This document shows, in pieces, positions 3,643 to 9,826 of a stretch of DNA of 55,280 nt. The notes beneath the pieces were generated by a model. That model had not been told where the DNA came from. It saw nothing but the letters and a program-made list of their open reading frames with translations, and ran no database searches. How positions within the stretch are numbered: the stretch's first letter is position 1; each line of letters opens with the position of its first letter. The stretch is from a virus: positions 1-55,280 of IMG/VR virus record IMGVR_UViG_3300033273_000069; one strand, written 5' to 3'. Position numbers and translations under genes: made by a program.

Positions 3643-5622
3643 ATGTTTTCACAAAATTCAGTATCCGCATTGGCGACAGAGTTGGAAAAACTTTCTCGCA
3701 TCATGGGTGGCAAAGACATACGTACCCAGTTCAAGGGCGACCGTGCGTTCACCGATGGTAAGTTCATCAATGTTCCTGCGATGGACTTGACCGCCGAGCT
3801 TGACCCTACCCACCAAGCAATCATGCGTGGCTACCACATACATGAGGTCAGCCACGTAACAGACACAGACTTTGGCATGTTCCAGAAGCGTGGCATCAAC
3901 AAGATCAAGAGCATCTGGAACTGTTCCGAGGATGTGTTCGTAGAACGCAAGGCGATCCAGAAGTTTGCGGGTGCCCGCAAGAATTTGCAGGAGACAGTGC
4001 AACACGTACTGGCGAACGAGCAACAGTTCCGCAAGGACAATCCTGATCACCCACAGGTCAAGCGTACACGTTGGTGGTCTGAGATACCCTACGCTGCGCT
4101 TCAGCAAGCACGTAAGCAGATGGGGTACGAGAGCGAGGCACTTGATGAGTACCTGTCGGGCTTACCCAAGGAGTTGGCTCGTGAGGCTCGCAAGTTTGCC
4201 AAGCGTATGATCGAGGCTGACAGCAGCGAGGAAGCAGTGAAGGTTGCTCGTGCCATGAAGCGACGCATGGACAAGTTGGGTACACCCGAGGAAGAGCAGC
4301 AAGAGCAGCAGCAAGACGGTGGCATGGCTACGTCATCAGACGATGGACAGCAGCAAGGCGATGGTGGCGACGACAACACCAACGACGAGACTGACGACGA
4401 CGGTGACGAGCAAGGCGATGGCAATCGTACGAACGACGACGACAGCGACGGCGATGATGAAGGCGACGACGGCAGCGGCAGCGGCAGCGGTGACGGCGAC
4501 GAGGACACTGACGACGACGGCAGCGACGACAGTGGCAGCGACGGCGACGCTGATGGTGACGACGGTGGCGACGGTGATGCTGACGAGGACTTCGACCTTG
4601 AGGCTGCGCAAAATCGTGCCGACGAGGCAATGCAGGAACTGTTTGGCAAGTACAACACAGGCACGAGCGACATCAACCAGAACCTTGCACCAATCTTTCG
4701 TACGCATGTCGAGTATTGGGATTACCTACATGACTTGTACCACAATACACCCAACACGAAAGAGGCTCGTGAGTTAGCTGACGTTTGGCGTCAAGAGGTG
4801 ATAGATATTACTGCCAGACAAGCTGCGAAAGAGCACACAAACGATGCCAAGCGGTTAATCAGTGACGATGTACGCCAGTACAGCGCACGACTTGCTCGGT
4901 TGTTGTTGGCGCAGGAAGATCGTCGTAATGAGGGCGGTTACGCAAGCGGTCGCATTGATCGTCGTCGGTTGAGCCAGTTGGTTGCAGGCAACACCAATGT
5001 GTTTGCACGTCCACATGTGACACGTACGAGCGAGACACGCATCATGATTGCGGTCGATGGTTCGGGCAGCATGAATGCATCACGAACAAGACAGGCAATA
5101 CTCGCAATCAATTCGTGCCTTGGTCGTGCAGGGGTCAAGTTCGATATTGTCGAGTGGACGCAGACCACACTCAGAAGAGGCAAAGGGAACACAGCCCGAA
5201 ACAATACTGGCCTGATCTATCACAAGACTGCGAGTGATAGCTGGCGCACGATTGACACTGAGTTTGACTTCCAACCCGTCGGTGGCAGTACGCCCACGTA
5301 CTCTGCGATACTGTCGGTGTCACGCATCATGGCTGAGTGGACTGAGCCTCGTCGCATCTGTTTGTTCGTGACTGATGGGGTGCCGAACGGTTGGACAGTC
5401 GGTGAAGGCGAGGCTGTTGGTGAGCACGTAAGTGCCATGCGCAAGGCCGACATCGAAGTGTACGGCATTGGGATCGGCACCAACTGCAATATCACCCAGA
5501 AGATCATGACGGATATGTTTGACACGCACGTTGTGCATACCGACTTTGAGAAACTTGGCGAGACGATGCTTGGCGGCATCGAGCGCCTATTGATTGCAGA
5601 GGGTCACGCTCATGCCGCGTGA
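3643..5622 (+). CDS. cobT: CobT-like VWA-domain protein
   Basis: ATG 3643 follows CAGGAGACACAC. The 659-residue product has an N-terminal helical domain containing HEVSH (67-71, an HExxH-like motif seen in this family). A very acidic Asp/Gly/Ser repeat stretch follows at about residues 230-325, then a C-terminal von Willebrand A domain. The MIDAS residues are visible: DGSGSMN (D472, S474, S476), the Thr of GGSTPTYS and the Asp of FVTDGVPNGW. This matches CobT, the metal-binding partner of CobS. Directly downstream of the CobS-like ATPase, it probably forms the same ring complex. The low-complexity acidic linker is encoded by GAC/GGC-rich repeats that create long antisense frames. Those are shadows. 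Confidence 0.88.
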   Translation: MFSQNSVSALATELEKLSRIMGGKDIRTQFKGDRAFTDGKFINVPAMDLTAELDPTHQAIMRGYHIHEVSHVTDTDFGMFQKRGINKIKSIWNCSEDVFVERKAIQKFAGARKNLQETVQHVLANEQQFRKDNPDHPQVKRTRWWSEIPYAALQQARKQMGYESEALDEYLSGLPKELAREARKFAKRMIEADSSEEAVKVARAMKRRMDKLGTPEEEQQEQQQDGGMATSSDDGQQQGDGGDDNTNDETDDDGDEQGDGNRTNDDDSDGDDEGDDGSGSGSGDGDEDTDDDGSDDSGSDGDADGDDGGDGDADEDFDLEAAQNRADEAMQELFGKYNTGTSDINQNLAPIFRTHVEYWDYLHDLYHNTPNTKEARELADVWRQEVIDITARQAAKEHTNDAKRLISDDVRQYSARLARLLLAQEDRRNEGGYASGRIDRRRLSQLVAGNTNVFARPHVTRTSETRIMIAVDGSGSMNASRTRQAILAINSCLGRAGVKFDIVEWTQTTLRRGKGNTARNNTGLIYHKTASDSWRTIDTEFDFQPVGGSTPTYSAILSVSRIMAEWTEPRRICLFVTDGVPNGWTVGEGEAVGEHVSAMRKADIEVYGIGIGTNCNITQKIMTDMFDTHVVHTDFEKLGETMLGGIERLLIAEGHAHAA

Positions 5623-7315: not shown

Positions 7316-8017
7316 CTACACAACCACGGTTGGGTTGAGTTGTTCCATGCGACGTCCGTAAACGAGAGACGTGTGCGCTTTTCCCTCAGAGTTGTGTGTT
7401 GTGTATCTGGCCTCCACCAGTTTACCCGCCCGAGCGAGAACGTCGCAACGACTTTGGACTTTGGTGTAGCATCCGTGTTGCGTCTCGTTCATAGACTTTA
7501 GAGGGACAGGATTTATCGAGAGGACAGACCATAAGACGTCTACGAAACCCATCGGATTTACATCCAAAACCTCGAGTATCATGTCGTCTAAGTCAGAGTT
7601 GTCCATGTTCAGCAGAAGAGTAAACATTTGATCGCGCATTGTACGCAGATCGGGTGTGGCAGTCACAGGCTCCACAACTTTTTCTGGTTGTGTAGGTGTG
7701 ACAACTTCGGGCGCAAATTCTTCTGCGGCGTAGTCGTCTTTCTCGACGACTTCTTCTTCTTCATCTTCGTCTGGCACAAGAACTGTGTTCTCGTGATCCT
7801 GATGTAAGCGTACTGCAATCCAATGTGCAATGTGCTGACGCTCTGGATAGTTAGGGCGTAGTGTTGCGTGGTACTTGTCTCCTTTGCGCACGTCACAGGC
7901 TTCCGCCATCGCGACTGAGATGTAACAGTTCTCGCCATCATCCGTGAGTGAATACGCAGAACCGATACGTGTTACGTTAGTTATTTCGATTACTTTAGAT
8001 GTGTATGTGATCATCAT
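7316..8017 (-). CDS. Unknown protein with C-terminal winged-helix-like region (233 aa)
   Basis: The chosen start is the MMITYTSK methionine at 8017. The longer frame would enter the attachment-site region and reads as non-coding. Residues 1-75 (ITNVTRIGSAYSLTDDGENCYISVAMAEACDVRKGDKYHATLRPN) resemble a small beta-barrel. A Glu-rich linker follows at about 80-115 (EDEEEEVVEKDDY). The C-terminal 90 residues have a winged-helix pattern ending RCDVLARAGKLVEARYTTH. A DNA-binding or transcription-modulating role is plausible but inferred. It lies downstream of the integrase and attP on the same strand and ends before the hairpin cluster. Confidence 0.65.
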   Translation of the reverse strand: MMITYTSKVIEITNVTRIGSAYSLTDDGENCYISVAMAEACDVRKGDKYHATLRPNYPERQHIAHWIAVRLHQDHENTVLVPDEDEEEEVVEKDDYAAEEFAPEVVTPTQPEKVVEPVTATPDLRTMRDQMFTLLLNMDNSDLDDMILEVLDVNPMGFVDVLWSVLSINPVPLKSMNETQHGCYTKVQSRCDVLARAGKLVEARYTTHNSEGKAHTSLVYGRRMEQLNPTVVV

Positions 8018-8100
8018 TCTTAACCCAGTAATGTGTGTGCAACACAATAGTTGCGGTGATGTTTGAACCAAGAGTTGTGTACTCTTGGGTTGCTCAATGA

Positions 8101-8249
8101 ACACCGAAAGTTAAATGAAGATTTTGGGAAAACCCTTAGCAGGGGAGCGCCTTCGACCACTCGGCCACGTTTCCATGGACGGTAATACGCAGTAGGCGTT
8201 TGATGTGCAAGAGAGTTATTCATCTTTCTTCCTACTTAACCTTCGGTGT
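8101..8249. repeat. attP arm-like inverted repeat flanking the tRNA-Ser core
   Basis: ACACCGAAAGTTAA at 8101-8114 is the inverted partner of TTAACCTTCGGTGT at 8236-8249 (13 of 14 positions), centred on the tRNA-like core. Two direct copies of AGTTGTGT (8073-8080 and 8257-8264) and a hairpin CCAAGAGT/ACTCTTGG (8068-8088) flank it. The arrangement fits integrase arm-type sites. Confidence 0.55.
8133..8174 (-). other. attP: Probable attP core: 5' half of tRNA-Ser(GCU)
   Basis: Reading the minus strand from 8174, the sequence gives an acceptor-like GGAAACG, TG, a D-arm GCCGAGTGGTCGAAGGC, and an anticodon stem-loop CCCCTGCTAAGGG (anticodon GCT). This is the 5' half of an alphaproteobacterial tRNA-Ser(GCU). 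After the anticodon stem it diverges, with no variable arm, T-arm or pairing 3' acceptor strand, so it is not a working tRNA. Lying about 100 bases beyond the integrase stop codon, it is best explained as the attachment core identical to the host tRNA gene. The phage would supply the 5' half on integration. Confidence 0.75.
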
Positions 8250-8272
8250 GTCCTCAAGTTGTGTGGCTGACC

Positions 8273-9283
8273 CTACGCAAGGGACATCACGGCTGCTTTA
8301 TGATCTTCGAAGGTCGTGTTCATGTAGCGCATGACCATCTTTAGATCGCTGTGCCCAAGTAGATCGGCGATCACTTTGGGCGGTACTCCGTTACGCGCAA
8401 GACGCGTAGCGAATGTGTGTCGTAAGGCGTAAGGCGACTTGGTGATACCAAGTTTGTCAGTGACCTTGCGCCAGTGGTATCCGATCTGTTTGTTCGTTTC
8501 GAAGGCGCGGCCTTCGAGTAAGAACGGATACGTGTGCGGTGGCGGATCGCTCCGTGGGATTGTCGCGAGTGCATTGTCGTTTAGGGGCACCCGACGCTCC
8601 CTGAGTTCTCCGTTTGCGCCCTTATACGAACCGAGGACTACAGTGTTGTTGCTGAAGTCTACGTTGTCGTAGGTTAGACGCATCGCCTCAATCGGACGCG
8701 CACCAGTATGCAGAAGGAAGTTGCAAAGGCGGCGGATGTCAGGATGCAAGTCGGGAAAGATTGCGTCGATCTCTTCTTGCGATAACGTATCCGTTTTGTG
8801 TTTACCTTCGCGCGGCTTCTTCAGCTTTATGGTGTCGCGTAACCCGAGGGATGCTGCAAAGTTTAGAACACCTTGGAGTTGGTTGAGGTCACGCCTTATG
8901 GTTGAGTTGGCGTTGCCCTTGTTGACATGCTTCTCTTCGACATATTCTTCGATGTCGTTCAAGTCGATCTTGTTGACTTGGAAGTCTCCGAAATAATCTA
9001 CGAGACGCATGACGTACTCCTGTGTTGACTTGCTGCTCCCAGTATGGGGCGACTTGAGATAGCGACGAGCGACTGAACGGAATTTGTTTTGTGCTCCGTG
9101 TATGGATTTCTGTCCGAGCTTGATGTGACCCGCTAGAACTTTTGCTTCGTACTCCGCTGCTAATTCTTTTGCGTGTACGTAGTCGGCTGTACCTAGTGAG
9201 TGTCGGACGCGAAAGCCTTGCCAGTTGCCAACCGCGTAGTAAAATTTGCCACCGCTGCGCTTCTTTACTTTGAAGAGTGGCAA
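8273..9283 (-). CDS. int: Tyrosine-type integrase
   Basis: A 336-residue tyrosine recombinase. The N-terminal arm-binding-like region (1-60) is followed by a SAM-like core-binding domain (about 65-150) and a catalytic domain. Catalytic residues are R196 (TGARPIEAMRL), K221, R288 (ALRHTFATR), H311 (LLGHSDLKM) and the nucleophile Y320 (MVMRYMN). The usual His of the HxxR box is Tyr here (Y285-A-L-R288), an accepted but less common variant. The adjacent tRNA-Ser fragment is the likely attP core. The gene starts three bases after the stop of the LuxR-type regulator, suggesting cotranscription and joint control of integration. Confidence 0.95.
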   Translation of the reverse strand: MPLFKVKKRSGGKFYYAVGNWQGFRVRHSLGTADYVHAKELAAEYEAKVLAGHIKLGQKSIHGAQNKFRSVARRYLKSPHTGSSKSTQEYVMRLVDYFGDFQVNKIDLNDIEEYVEEKHVNKGNANSTIRRDLNQLQGVLNFAASLGLRDTIKLKKPREGKHKTDTLSQEEIDAIFPDLHPDIRRLCNFLLHTGARPIEAMRLTYDNVDFSNNTVVLGSYKGANGELRERRVPLNDNALATIPRSDPPPHTYPFLLEGRAFETNKQIGYHWRKVTDKLGITKSPYALRHTFATRLARNGVPPKVIADLLGHSDLKMVMRYMNTTFEDHKAAVMSLA

Positions 9284-9286
9284 GCG

Positions 9287-9826
9287 TTAGTCCTCCTTTC
9301 TGTATAGTGCTGCGTGTGGGTCAGGCACATTTGGATCGTACGTTCGTGCCCAGTCGATTGGTATGCCGCCTGAACTGCGAGCGTATTCGGTAGGGTCTAC
9401 GCGGTCGAGGATGTCGTTAAAAACGAGTGCTGCTTGCCCTCTAGTTTTTGTGCCGACCTTCTTACACACGGCCCTTACATGTAGCTTAACAGTATTCTCT
9501 GCGATATTTAGGACGTCCCCAATATTTTTATTGGCCCATCCCTCTATGAGTAGTTGTGCAGTTATGTGCTGCTTGGCAGTCATAGTTCGGAGCAAAGAGA
9601 GTTCGGCGGGGGACACGGTGCTATAAGCATCTGATATAGACGGCGCATCCTTACCCTGCTGTAGGAGAAGATTAGTGATAATGTCGAGCTTGGCTTCAAG
9701 ACGAGCAAGCTCAAAGCGAAGTGCAGTATTTGTACTAGACATTGTATCATTTTGATCCGTGATAGTTGATGATTGATGACGCCCAAGTTGTTGTGGGCTA
9801 TCTGGAATGTAGTGTTTATGATACAT
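9287..9826 (-). CDS. LuxR/GerE-type HTH regulator
   Basis: A 179-residue protein. An N-terminal segment with a short coiled coil (LRFELARLEAKLDIITNLLLQQ, 37-57) precedes a GerE/LuxR HTH at about 82-137 (MTAKQHITAQLLIEGWANKNIGDVLNIAENTVKLHVRAVCKKVGT), including the hallmark ENTVKxH and a C-terminal helix. There is no autoinducer-binding or receiver domain. The start at 9826 has AGGTG upstream. The internal methionine at 9742 is an alternative if the TTGACA at 9836-9831 is a promoter. It lies immediately upstream of the integrase on the same strand, so it probably controls lysogeny or integration, possibly autoregulating through the palindrome at 9838-9855. Confidence 0.85.
   Translation of the reverse strand: MYHKHYIPDSPQQLGRHQSSTITDQNDTMSSTNTALRFELARLEAKLDIITNLLLQQGKDAPSISDAYSTVSPAELSLLRTMTAKQHITAQLLIEGWANKNIGDVLNIAENTVKLHVRAVCKKVGTKTRGQAALVFNDILDRVDPTEYARSSGGIPIDWARTYDPNVPDPHAALYRKED

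Follow-up and report, generated by a model that had tools for sequence, protein, structure and literature searches.

How would a temperate phage that inserts into a tRNA gene keep that gene expressed, if the phage carries the 5' half of the gene in place of the usual 3' part? The question is raised by a locus in the virus record IMGVR_UViG_3300033273_000069, which was analyzed as a single stretch of 55,280 bases (hereafter, the window). Recombination from the 5' side of tRNA genes is described as considerably rarer than recombination from the 3' side (PMC6563490), and a review states that bacterial tRNA genes rebuilt by integration retain their own promoter, with very few exceptions (PMC8371274). 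We find that the site in the window is very likely the attP of a CRP-810-type temperate phage, whose 5' half, combined with a 3' half from the host, would rebuild tRNA-Ser(GCU).

The attP core and the genes beside it

Read along the minus strand from 8174 to 8133, the core comprises, in order, the acceptor 5' strand, the D arm, the 5' strand of the anticodon stem, the loop CTGCTAA, and GGG, after which it departs from host tRNA-Ser(GCU) genes (Table 1). The original prediction of an attP made from the 5' half of this tRNA is thus borne out over 42 nt, as is, by comparison with the host genes, its divergence after the anticodon stem. The core begins 98 nt beyond the stop codon of a tyrosine integrase, and the 42-nt stretch matches known phage records (E values of 2e-8 to 1e-6). 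The window therefore has the arrangement of a 5'-half element, i.e., a tRNA 5' part beside an integrase, and the 3' part found in a conventional attP is absent. ARAGORN detects no complete tRNA in the 55,280 nt, and hence no complete phage tRNA of the target isotype such as characterizes tRNA-dependent lysogeny; no RNA family exceeds its Rfam threshold in the window.

Five residues of the integrase (R196, K221, R288, H311, and Y320), which we take to be the catalytic Arg, Lys, Arg, His, and Tyr, are invariant in 13 aligned sequences, in keeping with a tyrosine recombinase, and its box II has the form YxxR. The gene next to the attP on the other side (7316-8017) is conserved. A structural model of its product (pLDDT 79.9; 11 sequences) predicts an N-terminal OB-like barrel, an acidic linker, and a helix-rich C-terminal domain; the modeled barrel has a weak resemblance to the OB folds in Rho and IF-1, none of its matches reaching E <=0.001. 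An open frame crosses the core (8020-8223, minus strand) in all Ser-type lineages tested and exhibits no sign of protein selection.

Table 1. Positions of the attP, its flanking repeats, and the adjacent genes in the window
Feature	Position	Strand	Basis or remark
Gene just past attP, 233 aa	7316..8017	-	read in the direction of the tRNA half; no family match
Frame across attP core, 67 codons, probably no gene	8020..8223	-	no synonymous excess
Outer repeat AGTTGTGT, second copy	8073..8080	+	sequence
Right arm repeat ACACCGAAAGTTAA, inverted partner of 8236-8249	8101..8114	+	13/14
attP core, first 42 nt of tRNA-Ser(GCU)	8133..8174	-	sequence; G1 = 8174
Candidate strand exchange, anticodon loop	8136-8142	-	likely, inferred
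Anticodon GCT	8138-8140	-	within attP core
Putative -10 element TATTAC, ending 7 nt before G1	8182..8187	-	TA at -13 in relatives
Putative -35 element TTGCAC, spacer 17	8205..8210	-	TTG at -36 in relatives
Left arm repeat ACACCGAAGGTTAA (integrase strand), putative integrase arm site	8236..8249	-	13/14 inverted repeat
Outer repeat AGTTGTGT (ACACAACT on integrase strand), putative second arm site	8257..8264	+	sequence
Tyrosine integrase, 336 aa	8273..9283	-	PF00589 E 1.1e-21; phrog_1 E 4.2e-56
LuxR/GerE-type regulator adjoining integrase	9287..9826	-	PF00196 E 2.5e-10

Integrase relatives and a change of target

Searching viral contigs with the integrase protein identified 27 relatives, a number that a profile search increased. 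We counted the 31 viral loci with an integrase identity of at least 45% (L005-L030 and L038-L042), and scored L007, whose core is truncated, as Ser; the distant or fragmentary matches L031 and L043-L073, nine of which were inspected, were left out of this number. A Ser(GCU) 5' half lies downstream of the integrase in 23 of the 31. The same place is taken by the 5' half of tRNA-Arg(CCU) in six (L026, L027, L029, L038, L039, and L040), such that 29 of the 31 carry one half or the other. The core is conserved across relatives while the flanks diverge, and the Arg(CCU) halves break in the same anticodon region as the Ser halves. In a tree constructed without L113, L162, L114, and CRP-810, the Arg rows make up one clade (100/100), apart both from the Ser rows of the window's clade (86/95) and from a clade of L028 and L042 (100/100). 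Because the Arg clade is separate from both Ser clades, the target must have changed at least once.

A tRNA half is absent from the remaining two loci, L025 and L041. The integrases of L041 and L042 are very close, and L041 (around 3987-4140) is without the attP core and its flanks between the integrase and the next gene; it is possibly a phage that is no longer able to integrate. L025 is a relative of 59% identity in which no tRNA half is recognizable after the integrase (about 4011-4260).

Half tRNA genes in other viral contigs

The 5' half had been put forward as an exception to the 3' part that most phages carry, but it is not singular. A 34-nt pattern from the Ser 5' half is matched exactly in at least 119 stretches of viral contigs, representing at least 80 loci; these counts describe a sample. 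Among the matches listed (80 loci), 37 are halves, 40 are intact, and three are too short to tell. Among the matches listed, 33 of the 37 halves but only four of the 40 intact copies have a tyrosine integrase at a distance of up to 250 nt, as found with the window's integrase profile (E <=1e-4); the window's own family accounts for 11 of those 33 integrase-adjoining halves, again among the matches listed. Two layouts are encountered: the integrase either precedes the half, with both on one strand, or follows it in the facing orientation. The listed Ser halves may represent attP or attL. Two Rhizobium phage genomes have a Ser 5' half that adjoins the integrase on the other strand. The 17 viral stretches obtained for Arg(CCU) comprise six halves, ten intact copies, and one that is cut.

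A promoter-like sequence at native spacing

Counted from the first base of the tRNA, a TTG starting at -36 and a TA starting at -13 are found together in seven of seven non-redundant Ser-type attPs, with a 17-nt spacer and then 7 nt to the tRNA. Redundancy was reduced by removing attPs at least 75% identical over 60 nt, which took 23 Ser rows to seven and five Arg rows to four; the seven Ser lineages include L028 and L042, with integrases 45-47% identical to that of the window. In five native host tRNA-Ser(GCU) genes, the TTG lies at -36 or -37 and the TA at -13. Given that the phage elements are spaced like those of the host's own promoters, a replacement tRNA promoter at native spacing is probably provided by the phage. 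A strict scan of 7950-8350 for the E. coli sigma-70 consensus yielded no promoters, and the native host sites look equally far from that consensus; we therefore call the sequence only a probable promoter, a label that derives from the spacing it has in common with the native genes. TTG at -36 is absent from all four non-redundant Arg-type attPs.

The same -35/-10-like sequence might instead serve the 233-aa gene in the free phage, with the tRNA being read from elsewhere, e.g., by read-through from the integrase gene. That gene is indeed read in the same direction in the aligned relatives and begins shortly after the core, and the integrase lies upstream on the strand of the tRNA half. We nonetheless hold this explanation to be unlikely. 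The spacing is fixed to base 1 of the tRNA and is equal to that of native tRNA-Ser genes, and the promoter-like sequence is kept in L028 and L042, in both of which the attP is followed by another gene. Further, a TTG occurs at a like distance (between -39 and -36) in all 21 of the non-redundant Ser(GCU) halves that lie beyond the family, compared with an average of 16% for other upstream 7-nt stretches, with the proviso that some of these 21 may be host promoters at attL. The 21 halves were taken from the listed loci plus L232, with L002 and L003 put through the same filter.

Repeats flanking the core

The 13/14 inverted repeat that had been predicted around the core (8101-8114 and 8236-8249) is present, as are the two flanking copies of AGTTGTGT, at 8073-8080 and 8257-8264. 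When both flanks were shuffled, the score of the inverted repeat was reached by one of 1000 shuffles. It was undetected by the default repeat finder, a miss explained by the longest exact run of 8 nt, given a seed of 9. In 13 representatives, the best 14-mer inverted repeat around the core matches at 11-14 of 14 positions, and no more than 15 of 1000 shuffles attain its score in 11 of the 13; the arm repeats are weaker in L022 (27/1000 shuffles) and L039 (112/1000). Most relatives thus retain the inverted repeat on both sides of the core, in the manner of arm sites, and the arm motif is alike for Ser and Arg targets, which is the expectation for integrase arm sites. A ACACAACT-like sequence adjoins the integrase stop codon in most Ser-type relatives. 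We regard the flanking repeats as putative integrase arm sites, a role assigned from sequence.

Past the right arm, the window (8068-8088) and several relatives contain a hairpin-like dyad (e.g., CCAAGAGT...ACTCTTGG) with no T run.

A relative at a chromosome junction

A scan of genome contigs revealed a sole close relative of the integrase in a cellular genome, L032, from Ascidiaceihabitans sp. isolate AH-135-O06 (72% identity). The order in L032 is a sequence resembling the end of the regulator, the integrase (318-1328), 98 nt of phage type, an intact tRNA-Ser(GCU) (1427-1516), and bacterial genes. Its downstream flank is 85% identical over 125 nt to that of a congener (G399). The upstream sequence that is common to the native tRNA-Ser(GCU) of several congeners is missing, and phage DNA is found there instead. 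The first bases of the half in L032 are AGAGACG, as in several congeners, and pairing with the 3' strand of the host is possible; the other phage copies shown start with GG. Integration from the 5' side predicts such a layout. The check proposed with the original prediction, a prophage in an alphaproteobacterial tRNA-Ser(GCU), thus returned an intact tRNA with phage DNA upstream and host DNA downstream, a combination seen in this one relative only. The expectation that the phage would replace the 5' half and promoter of the host gene holds insofar as the upstream side in L032 is phage; it falls short in that the native promoter is not merely removed, and a replacement appears to be brought. 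It is possible that the L032 junction is an assembly chimera formed at the 42-nt shared stretch, and the isolate name suggests a single-cell genome.

The junction bears on two other accounts of the half gene. Transfer RNA genes are common in phages, Bcep781 having a whole tRNA-Ser(GCU), and the half could accordingly be the decaying remnant of such a gene with no function as an attachment site. We reject this exceedingly improbable reading because host sequence completes the tRNA gene at the L032 junction and because the identical cut point recurs, beside the integrase, both in a second tRNA and in lineages whose flanks have diverged.

The fragment could also be a separate RNA, or part of a small protein that is encoded through the attP and shortened by integration. 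Mycobacteriophage BPs has such integration-dependent immunity, in which a product is cut short by integration. A frame of 53-79 codons over the core is the most open of the three upstream in eight of eight lineages and downstream in seven of eight (not L028), and in L032 the frame through the core ends right after the anticodon stem. In the close group, however, synonymous differences number 24 against 259 non-synonymous ones upstream, with no third-position excess, and 74 against 492 downstream, with a slight third-position excess. Moreover, L021, L028, and L042 do not share the ATG at -49, and none of the four Arg-type attPs tested keeps the frame open. The small protein was rejected as the main reading since the codon changes are mostly non-synonymous, and we judge this pair of alternatives, RNA or protein, to be very improbable.

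We thus favor integration from the 5' side. In the proposed mechanism, the core sites bound by the integrase would lie at the anticodon stem-loop and its arm sites in the repeats on either side, and the anticodon regions of the phage half-gene and the host tRNA-Ser(GCU) would recombine. The orientation would be the opposite of the usual one: the phage 5' half would be joined to the host 3' half, and a complete tRNA would consequently lie at the integrase end of the prophage. The native host promoter and 5' half would be displaced to the far end of the prophage, and the tRNA-type promoter of the phage, at its native spacing, would keep the rebuilt gene expressed. The point of strand exchange, the binding of the arms, the activity of the promoter, and integration of the window phage itself by this route are what we infer from these comparisons. 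After integration, the 7316-8017 gene would sit behind the native tRNA promoter. Integration could then amount to a reciprocal exchange of promoters, or a state switch, with the host's only AGC/AGU tRNA placed under the phage promoter and the native promoter driving the 7316-8017 gene in lysogens; we consider this extension doubtful. Were it true, the phage promoter over the AGC/AGU tRNA could be regulated, and the cell would depend on prophage DNA for an essential tRNA, making abnormal loss of the prophage lethal.

Host genomes and elements at tRNA-Arg(CCU)

A tRNA-Ser(GCU) search gave one match each in eight of 12 genomes of the host genus and no match in four. One junction is known for the window's integrase family, and no attL was found; the left junction, consisting of the native promoter and the displaced 5' half, was not found in the fragmented 1.9-Mb assembly of L032, in which there is one match. 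A search without a positive control for the window's exact 44-nt attB (acceptor GGAAACG) found it in none of 142 alphaproteobacterial genomes. Across 394 genomes of the host family, the integrase profile picked out G001 only, and a search of G001 for a window phage protein, also without a positive control, produced no match. Exact half-tRNA patterns gave one and zero matches in the 394 genomes; halves that run on as GGGA, or that end ahead of GG, escape these patterns.

Elements unrelated to the window phage show both ends of a 5'-side promoter swap at tRNA-Arg(CCU) in the same host genus. In G399, foreign sequence precedes an intact tRNA-Arg(CCU), and a 5' half that retains the native upstream sequence is found on that strand at a distance of 7.8 kb. 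G402 is arranged likewise, except that its half has decayed, and in G395 a tRNA-Arg(CCU) half follows native upstream sequence. The end with the intact gene has an integrase-like gene with a weak match to the window's integrase profile (E 8e-10 in G399; split, with E 1.4e-7, in G402). These elements of ~7.5-7.8 kb (G399:C7 16133-23931, L246; G402:C9, L247) entered tRNA-Arg(CCU) from the 5' side, and both of their ends are visible.

The idea that Arg-type phages are without the promoter-like sequence as tRNA-Arg(CCU) is dispensable is one that we do not claim, because the unrelated elements in G399 and G402 have upstream sequences of the TTGATC and TTGACT types.

Relation to known systems

Integration by means of a tRNA 5' half is already known and is described as rare. 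Elements of this kind were reportedly treated by Zhao and Williams in 2002. What is new here is the phage family, its conserved promoter mimic, the switch of target, and the frequency of the arrangement in the sample; no report of this attP or of such a promoter mimic was found among the titles and abstracts that searches of an open-literature collection brought up. For archaeal pTN3-like elements, a review attributes expression of the rebuilt tRNA to the promoter of the element's integrase (PMC8371274). The window's site resembles 5'-half and pTN3-like elements in that a tRNA 5' half is carried and the gene is rebuilt from the 5' side. It differs from these elements in belonging to a tailed phage of marine alphaproteobacteria, in having an attP outside the integrase gene, and in coming from a family that has switched between Ser(GCU) and Arg(CCU) and in which a promoter-like sequence of tRNA type, dedicated to the tRNA, is placed at native spacing. 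With conventional 3'-half attPs it shares a tyrosine integrase, a crossover within the tRNA gene, and restoration of that gene, but the orientation is reversed, and the promoter and 5' half come from the phage. In the tRNA-dependent lysogeny of mycobacteriophages, a complete phage tRNA substitutes for the broken host gene (PMC10865867). There, too, the damage done by inserting into an essential tRNA gene is made good by the phage, whereas in window-type phages the host gene itself is rebuilt.

These comparisons have several consequences. A marine phage group seemingly reverses, at a single-copy tRNA gene, the rule that the host gene keeps its own promoter: the tRNA rebuilt on insertion should be driven by phage DNA and not by the host's promoter. 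Prophage takeover of the expression of an essential tRNA thereby becomes testable. Further, attP prediction that is restricted to 3' halves will miss such sites.

The portal protein places the window with CRP-810-type phages, being 69.5% identical to that of CRP-810 over 100% of its length. Roseobacter phage CRP-810 is described as inserting midway in tRNA-Thr by way of a 13-bp core and as having an entire tRNA-Thr gene of its own (PMC11288001). The two integrases are 28.9% identical. A LuxR gene lies beside the integrase in both phages, with cobT also near that of CRP-810, and the window holds phage families of the porphyrin- and cobalamin-biosynthesis types. Thus, where CRP-810 targets tRNA-Thr and brings the whole gene, the window has the 5' half alone and no complete tRNA, and one phage group appears to hold two solutions, namely a half gene with a promoter or a whole tRNA. 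In the CRP-810 sequence, the complete tRNA-Thr (about 4946-5023 in L231) is located just past the integrase and is followed by the short core. A tRNA-Thr also lies beside the integrase in L060.
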